A DNA stretch of 41,894 nt from Phycisphaerae bacterium (GTDB lineage Bacteria; Planctomycetota; Phycisphaerae; SM23-33): assembly GCA_021108335.1 (NCBI GenBank), contig JAIORC010000255.1:1-41894 (forward strand), given 5' to 3'. The notes below the pieces were generated by a model, which saw only the letters and a list, made by a program, of their open reading frames with translations, was not told the origin of the DNA and searched no databases. Each line of letters starts with the position of its first letter. Position 1 is the first letter of the stretch. The translations under genes and the position numbers were made by a program. Shown here piece after piece: positions 24,080-41,553 of the stretch.

Positions 24080-24127
24080 AATCTCCGTTGCTTGACATAC
24101 TCCATATTGCCATTACAATGACTGCCG

Positions 24128-24327
24128 TCAGTGGAGAGAGCCGAAAGGCCGCCGAAGGGGCAAATCCCGTGAAACGGGATGAAACTCTCAGGCAAAAGGA
24201 CACTGGCAAATTATCCTCTGGAGAGCTTTCAAATATCCGGACGGGCAGTCAAATGCCCGATCGGGCGGTTTGAAACACCGAAGGGGCAAGGCCGACAGGT
24301 CTATCTCTCAGGTTCCAGGACAGAGGT
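24128..24327 (+). promoter_or_regulatory. Tandem glycine riboswitch
   Basis: Two glycine aptamers lie head to tail. The first (about 24130-24207) has GGAGAG, CCGAAGGGGCAA and GAAACTCTCAGGCAAAAGGA. The second (about 24218-24327) has GGAGAGCTTTC, CACCGAAGGGGCAA and ATCTCTCAGG..GACAGAGG. These are the conserved blocks of the gcvT riboswitch. Glycine-bound tandem aptamers usually switch expression of glycine-cleavage genes on. The next gene is a GcvT fusion, as expected. Confidence 0.95.
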
Positions 24328-24365
24328 GCGATGATTATATAGATGATCTCGGACTGTCCCTGGAA
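24313..24365 (+). promoter_or_regulatory. Riboswitch expression platform (alternative stem)
   Basis: The 3' end of aptamer 2, TTCCAGGACAG (24313-24323), can pair with CTGTCCCTGGAA (24354-24365) with one bulged C. This would compete with aptamer closure and lies just before the AAAGG ribosome-binding site (24371-24374), so a translational or mixed switch is likely. Inferred from complementarity. Confidence 0.55.
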
Positions 24366-24381
24366 AATGAAAGGTTCCGCC

Positions 24382-27033
24382 ATGGCTGCGACAGAGGATT
24401 CTCTCCTGCGAACCCCATTATACGACCGCCACATCGCGCTCGGCGCGAAGGTTGTCGAGTTCGGCGGCTGGGCTATGCCCGTCCAATATCCAACCGGCAT
24501 CGTGGCTGAGCATCTGGCGACGCGTAAGACAACTGGTTTGTTCGATATCTCACATATGGGACGATTCGCCGTCCGCGGGGCTGGGGCGGTGGAATTCCTC
24601 CAGCACGTGCTGACCAATAACTGCCAGGCCCTCGACGTCGGCCTGGCCCAGTATACGATTATCCCCAACGAAACCGGCGGAGCCATCGACGACGCGTATC
24701 TCTACCGATTCGTAGCCGATGAATTCCTGCTGGTCGTCAATGCCGCCAACCGCCTGAAAGACTGGGCACACCTCCAGGAGCAACTGGCGAAATTCGACGA
24801 CGTGGAAATGACCGACCGCACCAACGAAATCGTGATGCTGTCGCTGCAAGGCCCGACCAGCCGGGCGATTCTCGAAGAAGTCATCGAGGCTGGGCCAATG
24901 CCAGAACCCGCGCGGAACAGCCTCTGCGAAGTTACCATCAACGCCGCAACCGTCAAGGTCGGGCGAACCGGCTACACCGGCGAGCCGCTGTGCTTCGAGC
25001 TGTTTATCCCCCGCGACGCCGGCGAAGGGCTGTGGGATTTATTGATCGCAAAAGGCGCGACGCCCGTGGGGCTTGGCGGGCGGGACACTTTGCGCCTCGA
25101 AGCCGCCATGCCGCTTTACGGCCACGAGTTCGGCTTGGATGGCGAGGGGAACGAAATCCCAATCTGCGCCGTGCCGCTGGCGAAATTCGCCGTGAGCTTC
25201 TCGCCCCTCAAGGGCGACTTCATCGGCAAAGCCGCCCTCGGATGGCAATACGAAGCACTCAAAAAAATCATGCGCCGCGATACGTCGCTCATCGCCGACC
25301 TGCCCCGCAAAATCGCGCCTGTCGCGCTGGCTGGGCGCGGCGTAGCCCGGGCCGGGGCGAAAGTTACACACGACGGCAAGCACGTCGGCTATATCACCAG
25401 TGGCACGATGGTTCCGCTGTGGGGTTCGCAGGGTGTGGGCCTGTCAAGCCGGCAGACTGATGAGCACCAACTCCGGTCGATTTGCCTGGCTTACATCGAC
25501 AGCGACATTTACGAGAATCAGCCGCTCACCGTGGACATCCGCGACAAAACTGTCCCAGCCGTTACCGTTAAGTATCACATGCGTTCCGAAGCGCCGCCTT
25601 TCGCCAGGCCGATTATCCACGACTTCCAACTACCGGCTGCCCCCCTGCCGACCGGGCCAGCCAAGGTCAAACACCTGCTGGACAAAGCCCTGGCCAATAC
25701 CGTCTGGCGGCAGCGCGAATGCATCAATCTTATACCCTCGGAAATGACGATCTCGCCGATGGCCCGGCTGCTTAGCGTCATGGACCCAGCCGGCCGATAC
25801 GCCGAACACAAAAAGTCCAAAGCCTTCTACGACGCGGACATTTTCTACTACCAGGGCACGGGATTCATCGACGAGGTCGAGCGGACACTGGAAGCCGAGA
25901 TGCTGGATTACCTCGGCTGTGCGGAGGCCGAAACCCGCCTCATCAGCGGGCAGATGGCCAACGCCACCGTCTTCAGCGCCATGGTGGACTACATCAATCG
26001 CACCGACCGCAAAATCGAGCAGCGGCGGATGCGGCAGGTGATGAACAATCACATCGGCAAGGGCGGACACCTCTCCAGCCAGCCGATGGGCGCACTGCGG
26101 GACTTCGTCAGCCGAGACCCACGAACCGAGCGGCCTGCCGTGGTGAATTTCCCCGTGCTGCCGGAAAACCAATACAAAATCGACGTCCCGGCTGCGTTGA
26201 AGCTTATCGACGAGTACCGCCCGGAGCTTATCATCCTCGGCAAGAGCATGGTGCTGCACACCGAACCCGTCGCGGAAATCCGCCAATTCCTGACGGCTGC
26301 CAATATCGACTCGGTGGTGATGTACGACATGGCCCACGTGCTGGGGCTGATCGGCCCGCACTTCCAGATGCCATTCGAAGAAGGAGCCGACCTCGTTACC
26401 GGCTCGACGCACAAGACGTTCTTCGGAACGCAGCGCGGGGTCATCGGCGGGCGATTTACCGAGGATCAGGAGCGTTACGAGCTTTGGGAGGCTGTCCGCC
26501 GCAGGACGTTCCCCGGCGCGGTGAGCAATCATCATCTCGGCACGATGGTCGGGCTATTGATGAGCGTCTACGAGATGAACCACTTCAAGGAAGAATATCA
26601 GCCGAAGGTCATCGCCAACGCCAAGGCCTTCGCCAAAGCGCTGGCGGATACCGGGCTGAACGTCGCCGGCGACTCGGAAATTTCGTATACCCAGACGCAC
26701 CAGGTGATTATCCACGTCGGCTACGCCCACGGGCCGGAAATCGCCGAGCGGCTCGAAGCTAACAACATCATCTGCAATTACCAGGCTTGCCCGGACGAGG
26801 AAAGTTTCACTGCCTCGGGCGCGCTGCGGATGGGCGTTTCGGAAATGACCCGCTTCGGCATGGGCCAGGACGATTTCAAAACGCTGGCTGGGCTGATCCA
26901 CGACGTGATAGCCGATAACGCCGACGTTACCGATAAAGTCAAATCGCTGCGGTCGAACTTCACGGAATTGCAGTTCTGCTTCAGCGAAAATGAATATGAA
27001 GGTGTCTTGCAAAAGCTGCACAAATTATTGTAG
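24382..27033 (+). CDS. Fusion of aminomethyltransferase (GcvT) and serine hydroxymethyltransferase (GlyA)
   Basis: An 883-residue two-enzyme protein. Residues 1-400 are GcvT (T-protein): RTPLYDRHIALGAKVVEFGGW, the folate-binding GGAIDDAYLYRF, VVNAANRLKDW and the C-terminal barrel. GcvT releases ammonia and 5,10-methylene-THF from the aminomethyl H-protein. After a Pro-rich linker (about 405-425), residues 426-883 are a divergent SHMT. They show INLIPSEMTISP, GRYAEH, FIDEVERTLEAEML, the PLP-binding Asp/His in YDMAHVLGLIG, the Schiff-base Lys in TGSTHKTFFGTQRG (about 678) and the carboxylate Arg in ALRMGVSEMTRFG. All key residues are present. SHMT uses methylene-THF and glycine to make serine. 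The start is ATG 24382 (AAAGG seven bases upstream); two in-frame ATGs at 24343 and 24367 fall in the riboswitch platform. Confidence 0.93.
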   Translation: MAATEDSLLRTPLYDRHIALGAKVVEFGGWAMPVQYPTGIVAEHLATRKTTGLFDISHMGRFAVRGAGAVEFLQHVLTNNCQALDVGLAQYTIIPNETGGAIDDAYLYRFVADEFLLVVNAANRLKDWAHLQEQLAKFDDVEMTDRTNEIVMLSLQGPTSRAILEEVIEAGPMPEPARNSLCEVTINAATVKVGRTGYTGEPLCFELFIPRDAGEGLWDLLIAKGATPVGLGGRDTLRLEAAMPLYGHEFGLDGEGNEIPICAVPLAKFAVSFSPLKGDFIGKAALGWQYEALKKIMRRDTSLIADLPRKIAPVALAGRGVARAGAKVTHDGKHVGYITSGTMVPLWGSQGVGLSSRQTDEHQLRSICLAYIDSDIYENQPLTVDIRDKTVPAVTVKYHMRSEAPPFARPIIHDFQLPAAPLPTGPAKVKHLLDKALANTVWRQRECINLIPSEMTISPMARLLSVMDPAGRYAEHKKSKAFYDADIFYYQGTGFIDEVERTLEAEMLDYLGCAEAETRLISGQMANATVFSAMVDYINRTDRKIEQRRMRQVMNNHIGKGGHLSSQPMGALRDFVSRDPRTERPAVVNFPVLPENQYKIDVPAALKLIDEYRPELIILGKSMVLHTEPVAEIRQFLTAANIDSVVMYDMAHVLGLIGPHFQMPFEEGADLVTGSTHKTFFGTQRGVIGGRFTEDQERYELWEAVRRRTFPGAVSNHHLGTMVGLLMSVYEMNHFKEEYQPKVIANAKAFAKALADTGLNVAGDSEISYTQTHQVIIHVGYAHGPEIAERLEANNIICNYQACPDEESFTASGALRMGVSEMTRFGMGQDDFKTLAGLIHDVIADNADVTDKVKSLRSNFTELQFCFSENEYEGVLQKLHKLL

Positions 27034-27097: not shown

Positions 27098-27481
27098 ATG
27101 GTACCAAAGGATTTGCTGTACACGTCGGAACATGAATGGGTAAAGGTTGAAAACTCTGTAGCGACGGTGGGCATTACCAACCATGCGCAGAACGCGCTGG
27201 GCGATATCGTATTCGTCGATCTGCCGGATGTTGACAAGGAGTTTGCCAAGGGCGACGAGGCCATCGCGTTGGAATCGGCCAAGGCTGCCGCCAGCATCTA
27301 CGCGCCTGTAACCGGCAAGATTACCGAAGTCAATAACGACCTCGACGACGATCCGGCATTGGTCAACAACGACTGCTACGCCGGCGGATGGATGTTCAAA
27401 ATCTCCATCAACGACGAAGCCGACCTGGCCGGCCTGATGGACGCCGGCACCTACGAAGATTTTTTGAAGTCGCAGGACTAG
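27098..27481 (+). CDS. gcvH: Glycine cleavage system H protein
   Basis: A 127-residue lipoyl carrier. It begins YTSEHEWVKVENSVATVGIT, has ALGDIVFVDLPDVD, the lipoyl-lysine hairpin ALESAKAAASIYAPVTG (Lys about 66), and the C-terminal GGWMFKI. It shuttles the aminomethyl group between P-protein (GcvP), T-protein and L-protein. Length and motifs are normal; the usual ESVKAASD reads ESAKAAAS. GGAG lies eleven bases before the ATG. It is 64 bp downstream of the GcvT-GlyA fusion, which provides its T-protein partner. GcvP is not in the window. Confidence 0.96.
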   Translation: MVPKDLLYTSEHEWVKVENSVATVGITNHAQNALGDIVFVDLPDVDKEFAKGDEAIALESAKAAASIYAPVTGKITEVNNDLDDDPALVNNDCYAGGWMFKISINDEADLAGLMDAGTYEDFLKSQD

Positions 27482-27525: not shown

Positions 27526-27900
27526 GGTGCCATGCTTCTGCTTGCAGAAGCATGTGGTAAGAAAACGCGTCGGGTGGTCCCCTAGGGAAAAGATAGATAC
27601 ACGATGGCAGGTGGTATGTTGGGTGGTTTTGAGAAAGGGATGGCGCAGAAATTGTGAATCGATCTTTTCCCTAGGGGACCACCCGATATCGTGGGAATTT
27701 GTACAGGTTACAAACCCCCTTGGGGCAAGCCTGTGCTACCCCACTATTTTATTTTGATTGGTGGGTGCCGTGGCGGGAAGCGAAGCTTTCAGCCACGATG
27801 TCGGTAATCCGTGCGATTTACATGCTTCTGCAAGCAGAAGCATGGCACCCGGCAAATATTGATTAAGAAACTGTAGGGTGGGTGCTCCCGCCCACGCGCT
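27526..27900. repeat. Intergenic palindrome mosaic between gcvH and tdh
   Basis: This 456-bp gap has no gene. It contains GGGTGCCATGCTTCTGCTTG hairpin (27526-27557), the 115-bp module C element (27571-27685), a GTACAGGTTACAAACCCCCT/TGGGGCAAGCCTGTGC block (27701-27741), module A copy 3 (27761-27801), CATGCTTCTGCAAGCAGAAG hairpin ending GGCACCC (27821-27850), and module T (27873-27899) 38 bp before tdh. Confidence 0.85.
27571..27685. mobile_element. 115-bp MITE-like element with perfect 24-bp terminal inverted repeats
   Basis: The arms 27571-27594 and 27662-27685 are perfect reverse complements (CGGGTGGTCCCCTAGGGAAA then AGAT on the left). The 67-bp interior is not palindromic but is conserved in four other copies (6098-6183, 15842-15952, 30751-30850, 41726-41825). 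No target-site duplication is evident and no transposase is nearby. Confidence 0.7.
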
Positions 27901-27937
27901 TTCCCGAAGGACAGGTTTTCTAAAAAAGGACGTCGCA

Positions 27938-28972
27938 ATGAAAACTATGAAGGCATTGGTTAAAGCTAAACCGACAGAAGGCCTCTGGTTGCAGGATATC
28001 CCGATTCCCGAGGTCGGCAATAACGACGTGCTGATAAAGATTCTCAAGACGAGCATCTGCGGCACGGACGTGCATATCTGGAACTGGGACGAGTGGGCGC
28101 AAAAGACAATACCCGTACCGATGCACGTCGGCCATGAGTTTGTCGGCAGGATTGAGTGCGTTGGCGAGAACGTGCACGATTATCGTCGCGGCGACCTCGT
28201 CAGCGGCGAAGGGCACCTGGTCTGCGGGCGTTGCCGCAACTGCCTTGCCGGGCGGCGGCACCTCTGCGCCCATACCTCCGGCGTGGGCGTCAACCGCGAC
28301 GGCGCGTTCGCCGAGTACCTCTGCATCCCCGTTACCAACGTCTGGCCGGCTGATCCGAACATTCCGCTGGATGTCATCAGTTGCTTCGACCCGCTGGGCA
28401 ACGCGACCCACACCGCCCTGTCGTTCGACTGCCTCGGCGAAGACGTGCTGATTACCGGTGCTGGGCCGATCGGCATAATGGCTGCAGCCATCGCCAGGCA
28501 CTGCGGGGCGCGACACGTCGTCATTACAGACATCAATCCGTACCGCCTTGGGCTCGCGAAAAAAATGGGCGTAACGCTGGCGATGGATTCCCGCAGCGAA
28601 ACCCTGTCCGACGTGCAGAAGACCCTCGGCATGCAGGAGGGTTTCGACGTCGGGATGGAAATGTCCGGCAGCCCGGCTGCGTTTGGCGACATGCTGAAGA
28701 ACATGTGTCACGGCGGCAAAATCGCCATGCTGGGCATTCTGCCGGAAACGGCAATCGACTGGAACACGGTTGTTTTTAACGGCTTGACGATTAAGGGCAT
28801 CTACGGCCGGGAGATGTACGAAACCTGGTACAAAATGACATCCATGATCCAGAGCGGCCTGGACATCAGCCCAGTAATAACACACCGATTCCATTACACC
28901 GAATTCGAAAAAGGCTTTGAAGTAATGCGATCCGGCAAAAGCGGCAAAGTGATACTGAACTGGGCGGAGTAG
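27938..28972 (+). CDS. tdh: L-threonine 3-dehydrogenase
   Basis: A 344-residue zinc-dependent medium-chain dehydrogenase. It oxidises threonine to 2-amino-3-ketobutyrate with NAD. Threonine-dehydrogenase features are the start [20 protein letters not shown], the catalytic zinc Cys in [22 protein letters not shown], the structural zinc [15 protein letters not shown], the Rossmann motif [13 protein letters not shown] and [16 protein letters not shown]. Length matches E. coli Tdh (341). Start ATG 27938 has AAAAGGA eight bases upstream; the frame runs 20 codons further upstream through module T repeat DNA. Its product is the substrate of Kbl, encoded 290 bp downstream. Confidence 0.96.
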
Positions 28973-29262: not shown

Positions 29263-30477
29263 ATGTATGACGCGATGAAAAAACACGTAGCCTCGAGTCT
29301 TGCGGAAATCCACGAGGCTGGGCTTTATAAGGAAGAGCGAGTTCTGTCTACCGCCCAAGGTTCGCATATCGCCGTGGTCGGCGGGAGGGAGGTGCTGAAC
29401 TTCTGCGCGAACAACTACCTCGGCCTAGCCGGCGATTCGCGCGTAATCGCCGCTGCCCGCGCAAGCTACGAGCGCTGGGGCTATGGCCTGTCGTCGGTGC
29501 GGTTCATCTGCGGCACGCAAGAGCTTCACAAGCAACTCGAAGCGAAGCTCAGCGAATTTCTCGGCACGGAGGACACGATACTTTACAGCTCGTGTTTCGA
29601 CGCCAACGGCGGGCTGTTCGAGACGCTGCTAGGCCCGGAAGACGCGGTGATTTCCGACGAGCTTAACCACGCGAGCATTATCGACGGCATACGCCTGTGC
29701 AAGGCCCGGCGGCTGCGATACAAAAACGCCGACATGGCCGATCTCGAAGCCCGGCTCAAAGAAGCCTCCGACGCCCGGACGCGCCTGATAGCCACCGACG
29801 GCGTGTTCTCGATGGACGGTTCGATCGCGCCGCTGGCGGCTATTTGCGACCTGGCGGAGAAATACGACGCTGCCGTCATGGTCGACGATTCCCACGCGAC
29901 GGGCTTCATCGGCAAGACCGGCCGCGGCACGCACGAGTATAACGACGTGATGGGCAGAGTGGACATCATCACCAGCACACTTGGCAAGGCGTTGGGCGGG
30001 GCGTCGGGCGGATTCACCACCGGCAGGCGGGAAATCGTCGAACTGCTCCGCCAGCGAAGCCGGCCTTACCTGTTCAGCAACACGCTGGCACCGGCTATCG
30101 CAGCTACGTCGCTGGCGGTGCTGGATATCCTCGCCGAATCCACCGAACTGCGAGACAGGCTCGCCGACAACACCCAATACTTCCGCCAAGGCATGGCTGA
30201 CCGCGGATTCGACATTCCAGCCGGCGACCACCCCATCGTGCCGATCATGCTCGGCGAAGCGACACTGGCGACGAAGATGGCCTCGATGCTGCTGGACGAA
30301 GGAATATACGTAATCGGCTTCTGCTACCCGGTAGTGCCCAAAGGCAAAGCCCGCATACGAGTACAAATCTCCGCAGCCCACAGCCGCGACGACATCGACA
30401 AAGCAATGAACGCCTTCGCCCGGGTAAAAAAACAGGGAACAACGGGAACTGGGAACCAGGAACCGGGAACAACCTGA
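29263..30477 (+). CDS. kbl: Glycine C-acetyltransferase (2-amino-3-ketobutyrate CoA ligase)
   Basis: A 404-residue PLP enzyme of the alpha-oxoamine synthase family. It cleaves 2-amino-3-ketobutyrate with CoA to glycine and acetyl-CoA. Kbl features are [37 protein letters not shown], the PLP-stacking and Asp residues in [17 protein letters not shown], the Schiff-base Lys in [19 protein letters not shown] (about 246) and IPIMLGE-like [10 protein letters not shown]. '[13 protein letters not shown]' and pairing with tdh favour Kbl over BioF or HemA. AGGAA lies seven bases before ATG. The last 12 residues ([13 protein letters not shown]) come from a GGGAAC repeat run and extend the protein past the normal family end. 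Confidence 0.95.
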
Positions 30478-39424: not shown

Positions 39425-40519
39425 TTACCAGTCTTTGTCTACGGGCGCTGCCGTTCTTTGTTGTGCGTGGTATTTTTCAATACGCCGCCGGAGGTTCCTG
39501 TCCCGGACGGCCTGCAGCAGCTTGGCTGCCTCTTCGGGGCTCATCTTGTCCATCTTGACGGGCTTGGCCTTGGCTGCCGAGCCGCCGGGCTTTGCTTTGC
39601 TGTCGCCAGGCTTCCCGCTGGCGGGTTGATTCTGCTTTTTCTGCTGCAGCTGGCCCTGCTGCTTTTGCTGCTTGTCCTGTTGCTGCTTATCTTGTTGCTT
39701 CTGTTTCTCCTGCTGTTGCTGCTTGTCTTGCTGATTCTGTTTATCTTGCCGATCCTGCTTTTTCTGCTGTGCTTTTTGTTGTTGCTTCTGTTTCTGTTGT
39801 TTGTTTTTCTCGTTCTTCTTCTGGTTTTTCTGTTGTTGCTGGTCTTGTTTCTTTTGTTGTTTGTTTTCCTGGTTTTGTTTTTGTTTATCCTGTTTTTTCT
39901 GGTCCTGCTTGTTTTGCTTTTTTTGATCTTGTTTCTGTTTTTGTTTGTCCTGCTGTTTTTTGTTCTGTTGTTTCTTGTTTTGCTGTTTGTTTTTCTGCTG
40001 CTGTTTTTTATTTTGTTTCGGTTTCTGTTGCAGTTGTTTGATGAGCATCTGGGCCAGTTCGATATTTGCCCGGGCGTCGGCATCGTTTGGGTTTGCCTGT
40101 AGCGATTCTCGGTAGTGGGAGATAGCGGTTTGCAATTGTTTGACAGCCGCCTTTTTATCCTTCTTTTTCAGCAGTTGCAACCCCTCGGCGTAGGCGCAGT
40201 TGCCCAGGTTGAAGCGGGCCTTTGCTTCGAGTGTTTTGTCGTGGGTTTTCAGCGATTGCCCCAGCAGCTCAGCCGCCTGGTCGTAATTGCCTTTTCGGTA
40301 CAGCGCGACGGCCTGGTTGTAAACCAGTTCCGCCCGGCCGGGCTGTTGCTCAGCAAGTTGCTTGTAGACGGCCAGGGCGTTGTCCACTTTGCCGGCAGTC
40401 AAAGCCTCGTTGGCTTGCCGCACGAGCTTGTCCGGCGCGGGCGTATCTGCCTGCCCAAGTGTCGGCAGCAGCAGAATCGCGATGGCAATAAAGACGAATT
40501 GTGCCCAGCGGTTACTCAT
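39425..40519 (-). CDS. BatC-like secreted TPR protein with long Lys/Gln tract
   Basis: A 364-residue protein. A signal peptide (about 1-24, ending TLGQA) is followed by TPR units at about 30-150 (LVRQANEALTAGKVDNALAVY, LVYNQAVALYRKGNYDQAAEL, ARFNLGNCAYAEGLQLLKKK). Residues about 160-300 are almost only Lys, Gln, Asn and Asp (KQNKKQQQKNKQQ type), a probable disordered or coiled segment. A short conserved end (MSPEEAAKLLQAVRDRNLRR) follows. This is the BatC position and architecture. ATG 40519 overlaps the BatB stop by 4 bp (ATGA). The longer in-frame extension is antisense-free shadow of batB and is not used. Confidence 0.87.
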   Translation of the reverse strand: MSNRWAQFVFIAIAILLLPTLGQADTPAPDKLVRQANEALTAGKVDNALAVYKQLAEQQPGRAELVYNQAVALYRKGNYDQAAELLGQSLKTHDKTLEAKARFNLGNCAYAEGLQLLKKKDKKAAVKQLQTAISHYRESLQANPNDADARANIELAQMLIKQLQQKPKQNKKQQQKNKQQNKKQQNKKQQDKQKQKQDQKKQNKQDQKKQDKQKQNQENKQQKKQDQQQQKNQKKNEKNKQQKQKQQQKAQQKKQDRQDKQNQQDKQQQQEKQKQQDKQQQDKQQKQQGQLQQKKQNQPASGKPGDSKAKPGGSAAKAKPVKMDKMSPEEAAKLLQAVRDRNLRRRIEKYHAQQRTAAPVDKDW

Positions 40520-41553
40520 GCGTTCACCAGTTCCTTTCCGCCTCGATTTTTCCATTGGCTCGCCAGCAGTGTTTCGATCAGCAGCAGCCCCAACGCCAGC
40601 CCCACCAGCCATTGGTAGCGGGGGATGTAGCGGTTGACGCGGGCCTGTCGAAATTCCCGCTGGGCGATGGCTGCGATGTGTCGGCGGTAGACCTCGGCCA
40701 TGTCTACCTGGCGTGTGCCGGCGGGAATGTATGCTCCGCCGCCGGCCAATGCGGTTTTCTCCAGCATTTTGCCGTCCAGTTTCGTCCAGACTTCCTGCCC
40801 GTTCTGCTTGAGGTAGAACGTACCCTCGCCCGTCCGCCGCACGGGAATTCGCGAGCCGTGGGACATGTCGCCCAGGCCGACGGTATACACGCGAATGCCC
40901 TTTTGCCTCAGCGCCCGCCGGGCCGCCTCGACGGGGTAACTTTCGTGATCCTCGCCATCGGTGATGACGACGATGGCTTTGTGGTCGGCGGTCTTGTCCA
41001 CGAAGCAGCCGGCTGCGGTGCGAATCGCGTCGCCGATCAGCGAGCCGCCCCGCCCGACGGATTGCGTGTCGATTTCCTCCAACGCCATTTTCACGTCGCT
41101 GTAGTTGCTGGTCAGCGGCACTTTCTGCTTTGTCTTGCCGGCGAAGACGACCAGCCCCACGCGGTCGCCGCCCATTTCGTCCATCATGTCGCAAATGTAC
41201 TGCTTGGCCCGGCTCAGCCGGTTCGGCGATACGTCCCCAGCGAGCATGGATCGCGACACGTCCAACGCGAAGATCACGTCCACGCCCTTCTGGGGAATTT
41301 CAGCCCACTTTTTGCCCCATCGCGGATCGGTCATCGCCCCAGCCATCAATAGCATCGCCAGCACAAACAGCCCCGCCCGCGTCCACCGCCGCCACGACGA
41401 AACTCGCGGCAGCAGGTGCGGCTGGAGCTTCGTACCGGCGAACCGATCAATGGCGCGGCGGCGCAGGAATATGCCCGCGATAACGAGTACCGCAACGGCT
41501 GTGACAATCCACAAGAGGTTCCAGTATTCAGGATGATTAAATATCATTTCCAT
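40516..41553 (-). CDS. batB: BatB-like von Willebrand factor A membrane protein
   Basis: A 345-residue protein with two N-terminal membrane helices (about 10-29 and 59-75), a VWA domain (about 88-290) and a C-terminal helix (about 315-333). The metal-ion-dependent adhesion site is intact: VIFALDVSRSMLAGD, then a Thr/Ser region (PLTSNYSD) and VVITDGEDHES. BatA/BatB proteins of the aerotolerance operon have this layout; normally a MoxR-type ATPase and DUF58 protein are encoded upstream, beyond the right edge here. AAGG lies nine bases before ATG 41553. It is coupled to the TPR gene by a 4-bp overlap. Confidence 0.9.
   Translation of the reverse strand: MEMIFNHPEYWNLLWIVTAVAVLVIAGIFLRRRAIDRFAGTKLQPHLLPRVSSWRRWTRAGLFVLAMLLMAGAMTDPRWGKKWAEIPQKGVDVIFALDVSRSMLAGDVSPNRLSRAKQYICDMMDEMGGDRVGLVVFAGKTKQKVPLTSNYSDVKMALEEIDTQSVGRGGSLIGDAIRTAAGCFVDKTADHKAIVVITDGEDHESYPVEAARRALRQKGIRVYTVGLGDMSHGSRIPVRRTGEGTFYLKQNGQEVWTKLDGKMLEKTALAGGGAYIPAGTRQVDMAEVYRRHIAAIAQREFRQARVNRYIPRYQWLVGLALGLLLIETLLASQWKNRGGKELVNA

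Follow-up and report, generated by a model that had tools for sequence, protein, structure and literature searches.

A GcvT–SHMT fusion protein encoded in a planctomycete genome and in scattered bacterial phyla

GcvT and serine hydroxymethyltransferase (SHMT) catalyze consecutive steps in the glycine and one-carbon metabolism of nearly all life. They are normally separate proteins, linked only through free methylene-THF. The locus of interest lies in a 41,894 bp contig (hereafter the window; JAIORC010000255.1, assembly GCA_021108335.1) from a Phycisphaerae bacterium, where the two enzymes were predicted from sequence to be joined in a single protein. Two questions follow: is the fusion a genuine, intact gene product, and what could a cell do with it?

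Reading frame, domains and catalytic residues

The frame is open on the plus strand from a first ATG at position 24343 to the stop codon at 27031–27033, with no interruption. Counted from the ATG at 24382, homologues align with the fusion protein from approximately residue 7 onward, making this a likelier start codon than 24343 (the start of the longest frame); translation of 24382–27033 gives a protein of 883 aa. Pfam searches return the domain order (i) GCV_T, the folate-binding domain (PF01571; 24418–25131; 256 bits, E 4.9e-75), (ii) GCV_T_C, the C-terminal barrel (PF08669; 25312–25419; E 1.8e-8), and (iii) SHMT, of M. jannaschii type (PF00464; 25684–26898; 125.8 bits, E 1.3e-35), with the codon for the PLP lysine at 26413–26415. 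Between the two enzymes lies a linker of conserved length (25603–25695). The frame was checked near 25600–25670 and reads through this stretch without a stop or frameshift. Both domain sets are complete within 24382–27033, in line with the original prediction of one uninterrupted frame joining GcvT and SHMT.

The two halves score differently against curated models. The GcvT half matches NCBIfam TIGR00528 at 265.7 bits, above the equivalog cut-off of 235.85. The SHMT half clears the Pfam cut-off of 27 (about 123–125.8 bits) and falls below that of NCBIfam PRK00011 (243 bits against 335). No curated NCBIfam model spans both halves.

To examine individual residues, 44 full-length fusion homologues were aligned. 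In the GcvT half, Asp103/Asp104, Asn120, Tyr198, Glu201 and Arg238 are invariant in all 44; with E. coli and T. maritima GcvT as references, the catalytic Asp (E. coli Asp97) and the folate-site residues are retained. The SHMT half, matched to E. coli GlyA and M. jannaschii SHMT, keeps the PLP and substrate residues: the equivalents of Ser35, Tyr55, Glu57, Tyr64, Tyr65, His126, Asp200, His203, His228, Lys229 (PLP), Phe257 and Arg363 are likewise invariant in 44/44. At the SHMT folate site, comparison with E. coli SHMT shows that Glu57, Tyr64/65, Gly125 and Phe257 are kept, while Lys346-Asn347—a pair at the pterin site of the E. coli enzyme—is replaced in the fusion clade by Tyr-Gln (Tyr in 40/44, Gln in 44/44). 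With the exception of this pair, the predicted presence of the key residues of both enzymes extends, invariant, to the 44 homologues. Mean identity among homologues is 0.71 for the SHMT half versus 0.62 for the GcvT half, and divergence in one half tracks divergence in the other (r 0.89; 0 of 2000 permutations), as expected of a single inherited unit.

An AlphaFold2 model of the full-length protein, built as a monomer, has a mean pLDDT of 84 and a pTM of 0.81, with low confidence in the linker (residues 401–420). SHMT acts as a dimer or larger assembly. In Foldseek searches, the GcvT half matches T-proteins of known structure (TM about 0.88, by target length), and the SHMT half matches M. jannaschii SHMT (TM 0.84); none of the 50 best-ranked matches to the fusion model covers both halves.

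By sequence, the SHMT half is of the methanogen (M. jannaschii) branch, outside the GlyA branch. In our trees, which are quick builds with support by SH-aLRT only, the SHMT halves of the fusions fall together with M. jannaschii SHMT and stand-alone relatives, on a long branch from GlyA (SH-aLRT 100). M. jannaschii-type SHMT (4bhd, 4uqv) is the closest solved relative in both sequence and fold, and has the motifs GSTHKTFFG and FPG.VSNHH in common with the fusion. The fusion differs from it in long insertions, one downstream of the YAE motif and one upstream of the GGH motif, in the Tyr-Gln replacement, and in being joined to GcvT. Canonical GlyA (PRK00011) shares the PLP and substrate residues, and is usually present in fusion genomes as a second, separate gene. 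More distant members of the wider SHMT-like group are the L-threonine and fluorothreonine transaldolases (7k34; TIGR04506). These have the SN..H motif in common with the fusion, but similarity is lower, and the equivalents of Phe257 and Asn347 are lost in them (Cys and Ile, as opposed to Phe and Gln in the fusion). The fluorothreonine transaldolase model scores 132 bits against the SHMT half, below its cut-off of 650.

The GcvT half has the fold and folate-site residues of known GcvT (TIGR00528; solved for T. maritima, B. subtilis, E. coli and human), and the operon partners gcvH, gcvPA, gcvPB and lpd are likewise found near the fusion in many carriers. It differs from known GcvT in extra insertions in its C-terminal half and in the SHMT attached through a linker of ~40 residues. 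GcvT domains are fused to other partners in dimethylglycine dehydrogenase/oxidase, the sarcosine oxidase alpha subunit and trimethylamine N-oxide demethylase, a group that also came up as a fold match. In these fusions the partner enzyme exchanges a one-carbon unit with the GcvT domain; there the partner precedes GcvT and makes the unit, whereas here it follows GcvT and would consume it.

Distribution and history of the fusion

Among 34 other genomes of the window's family, eight carry the fusion, full-length or cut by a contig end. These proteins are 64–66% identical to that of the window and align through both halves and the linker. That the fusion might be confined to this planctomycete family was considered and rejected: a scan in which each named species was represented by one genome gave 537 relatives of the SHMT half and revealed fusions in other phyla. 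In 75 of the best 80 of these relatives, the SHMT is fused with GcvT in one frame; of the remaining five loci, one has a frame interrupted ahead of the junction, and four begin within the SHMT half at a contig start. The linker measures 41–43 residues between motifs in 80 of the 85 fused frames measured, across phyla.

By record title—a guide to taxonomy that may be wrong for draft genomes—the carriers are mostly Desulfobacteraceae, Desulfobacterales, Syntrophobacteraceae and 'Deltaproteobacteria'. Zixibacteria, Poribacteria, Desantisbacteria, Abyssobacteria and Planctomycetota also appear, and a few records are labelled Actinomycetota or Pseudomonadota. In an even sample of 396 genomes from the phylum of one Desulfobacteraceae carrier (G447, locus L053), 31 encode the full-length fusion, and in three others a frame cut by a contig end still crosses the junction. 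In a similar sample of 393 Planctomycetota the fusion is rare, occurring in the window's genome and two others. The mapping suggested in the original prediction, of proteins with GcvT followed by SHMT, thus returns many Desulfobacterota and a scatter of other phyla that includes Planctomycetota. The planctomycete sample also contains a single split pair: in the one-contig genome G222 (locus L166, 2796–5485), gcvT and a methanogen-type shmt are adjacent, separate genes, approximately 35 bases apart.

How did the fusion reach the window's genome? The window protein is 71–72% identical to its closest Desulfobacterota-type homologues versus 64–66% to those of its own family. DnaE, encoded on the same contig, shows the opposite: 60–63% identity to its own family, and 40–42% to the same Desulfobacterota-type genomes. 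Given these opposing identities, the simplest reading is that the planctomycete probably acquired the fusion horizontally, from a Desulfobacterota-like donor.

Both trees place a few stand-alone versions inside or adjoining the fused clades, a placement compatible with an old fusion that has since been split or lost in some lineages. One loss of the SHMT half is directly visible. In G020, a genome of the window's family, gcvT is followed by a ~44-codon remnant of the SHMT end and then by gcvH (L046, 9190–9430). Since some lineages have the GcvT half and lack the SHMT half, the joining is not indispensable.

Gene copies, riboswitch and neighbors

By PF01571 counts, 14 of 17 fusion genomes have no GCV_T protein apart from the fusion, and one of these is the complete chromosome G450 (CP070673). 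In these cells the fusion would be the T-protein, provided that they run the glycine cleavage system. PF00464 counts identify a canonical GlyA alongside the fusion in 15 of the 17, so serine can be formed independently of it; the drafts G448 and G463 yielded no SHMT besides the fused one. A single GCV_T gene is not the rule in every carrier, since two loci (L101, 2089–3384; L113, 4086–5363) hold a second, divergent GcvT-like gene of 425–431 aa that scores below the GcvT cut-off. This gene lies beside gcvH, and near both an AsnC/Lrp-like regulator and the fusion.

The window's genome encodes gcvT-gcvPA-gcvPB on contig C219 and glyA on contig C167, and the idea that the fusion is its only T-protein was accordingly rejected. 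The original prediction had named, as grounds for doubt, separate and complete gcvT and glyA genes together with a catalytically dead fusion. The separate genes do exist in this genome; the residues of the fusion are intact, which suggests that it is not dead. A further GCV_T-domain protein is encoded on contig C331 of the same genome (1382–2326; PF01571, 213 bits). Elsewhere among bacteria, G467 encodes a stand-alone methanogen-type SHMT (L171, 3245–4591; NCBIfam SHMT, 398 bits, over the cut-off).

Upstream of the fusion lies a glycine riboswitch. Aptamer 1 (24121–24213, plus strand) matches RF00504 at 61.1 bits (gathering score 32; E 2.2e-10). Aptamer 2 (24214–24327, plus strand) has the variant core CTCTCAGGTTCCAGGACA and was recognized from three sources: (i) the tandem model RF03166, which aligns with 24118–24327 at 62.8 bits, below its gathering score of 110, (ii) the core repeats CCGAAGGGGCAA and CTCTCAGG..AGGACA, which recur at a spacing of about 120 nt, and (iii) an aptamer-like fold (z −2.35). 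A possible expression platform follows (24305–24382, plus strand), with an inverted repeat (24305–24319 / 24359–24373). The fold of 24296–24400 contains a competing hairpin, of an energy that is not unusual (z −0.87). Pairing of the aptamer-2 core with the stretch just ahead of the start codon appears feasible, and would fit an ON switch. A glycine riboswitch is not a general feature of fusion loci: none was found at gathering scores in 11 others.

Downstream, all on the plus strand, are gcvH (27098–27481; TIGR00527, 153 bits, over the cut-off), tdh (L-threonine 3-dehydrogenase; 27878–28972; NF003808, 577 bits, cut-off 380) and kbl (glycine C-acetyltransferase; 29263–30477; TIGR01822, 653 bits, cut-off 493). 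This gcvH is the only H-protein gene found in a search of the window's genome. The family-model match to tdh runs from residue 24 (about 27947), and the true start probably lies close to this position. The products of tdh and kbl convert threonine to glycine. In many other carriers the fusion is genetically associated with gcvH, gcvPA, gcvPB, lpd or lipB.

The window's fusion set looks like one for the breakdown of threonine and glycine to serine. Three observations favor breakdown over the reductive glycine route that the original prediction had also entertained: the riboswitch, the adjoining tdh-kbl, and the outcome of a search of the window's genome (91% complete) for formate-THF ligase (PF01268), which returned none. 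Of 17 fusion genomes tested, 15 do have the ligase. The reductive route is thus disfavored for the window's genome, but would be possible in most other carriers.

Two further features of the window were noted. Positions 54–1316 encode a proline-rich repeat protein with units such as PTKPTPIKPAPVKVV and PAEPTKPAPAAPKPV, where the opposite strand also has long frames. A frame on the minus strand (39425–41194) begins with a tetratricopeptide-like segment and contains a very long stretch rich in Lys and Gln.

Proposed function and meaning

We consider it reasonably likely that the fusion is a bifunctional enzyme, a T-protein joined to a methanogen-type SHMT, with methylene-THF used locally to make serine. 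The N-terminal half would convert aminomethylated H-protein and THF to 5,10-methylene-THF and ammonia. The C-terminal, PLP-dependent half would then transfer the methylene-THF unit to a second glycine, giving serine and regenerating THF. If GcvP, GcvH and Lpd are included, the net reaction would be two glycine to serine, CO2, NH3 and NADH. Joining would set the halves at 1:1 and keep the SHMT site near the source of methylene-THF; with equal numbers and sites held close, we propose that the one-carbon unit is spent locally on serine. In the window's genome, the glycine-sensing tandem riboswitch and tdh-kbl would place the fusion in glycine and threonine breakdown. Catalysis by both halves, the direction of flux and a benefit of proximity are all inferred here from sequence. 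The bifunctional reading draws support from the invariant residues, the model and its fold matches, the correlated divergence of the halves, the status of the fusion as sole GCV_T protein in most carriers, its gene neighbors, and the split pair gcvT and shmt in one planctomycete. Against it stand the SHMT score under the NCBIfam cut-off, the Tyr-Gln replacement, the canonical GlyA that accompanies the fusion in most genomes, and the lineages that lack the SHMT half.

A stronger version, somewhat less likely than not, is a glycine cleavage system built for serine. Methylene-THF would pass from the T site to the fused SHMT site, bypassing the folate pool, such that the complex would act as a glycine-to-serine synthase (or in reverse) and GlyA would serve the general pool.

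The split pair also suits a less probable alternative to the bifunctional enzyme with local use of methylene-THF: both halves are active, there is no channelling, and the join serves to give equal amounts and shared control. The coexistence of canonical GlyA in 15 of 17 fusion genomes is compatible with such an arrangement, as are the stand-alone GcvT relatives that adjoin gcvH and gcvP in sister lineages. The constancy of the linker (41–43 residues in 80 of 85 frames) speaks against it, although a fixed length alone is no proof of contact between the sites.

It is improbable that the SHMT half performs another aldol-type reaction—threonine cleavage or transaldolation, for example—that feeds glycine to the cleavage system. 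The changed pterin-site pair and the adjoining tdh-kbl would be in keeping with such a role, as would the match to the fluorothreonine transaldolase model, far under its cut-off. The L-threonine transaldolase 7k34 is the next closest solved protein after M. jannaschii SHMT, but the latter is clearly closer (224 vs 127 bits). The fusion also keeps Glu57, Tyr64/65 and Phe257; in the transaldolase, Cys stands in place of Phe257 and Ile in place of Asn347. Moreover, the M. jannaschii-type SHMT of G467 is the only SHMT found in that bacterial genome.

A catalytically dead SHMT half, retained as a regulatory or scaffolding part, is very improbable: its score under the curated NCBIfam cut-off and its loss in some lineages are outweighed by the invariance, across 44 homologues, of the equivalents of the PLP lysine, Asp200, His203, His228, Arg363, Tyr55 and Glu57, and by a conservation exceeding that of the GcvT half. 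An assembly artefact, or a chimera of neighboring genes, has a negligible chance even though the window's genome is a draft of 409 contigs, and is already refuted by the homologues, since dozens of independent assemblies (one a complete chromosome) carry the same one-frame fusion.

The preferred reading, a bifunctional enzyme with local use of methylene-THF, involves two known enzymes; what is new is their joining. The sequences are public, and domain databases may show this architecture. A full-text literature search (with subscription papers and preprints outside its coverage) found no description of a GcvT–SHMT fusion. The reductive glycine pathway of Desulfobacterota is the subject of a 2026 paper that treats the SHMT and glycine cleavage proteins separately and from which the words 'fusion' and 'fused' are absent (PMC12827605). 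The original impression that this is not a standard architecture agrees with the literature searched and with the lack of an NCBIfam model for both halves.

The fusion lends itself to direct tests of folate channelling in a naturally occurring protein, and is a ready part for engineered glycine-to-serine routes. With the SHMT half under the SHMT cut-off, automated naming would give GcvT alone, and pathway reconstructions can consequently miss the fused SHMT. In many relatives of sulfate reducers and in scattered other phyla, one protein would serve both steps, often as the only T-protein of the cell.
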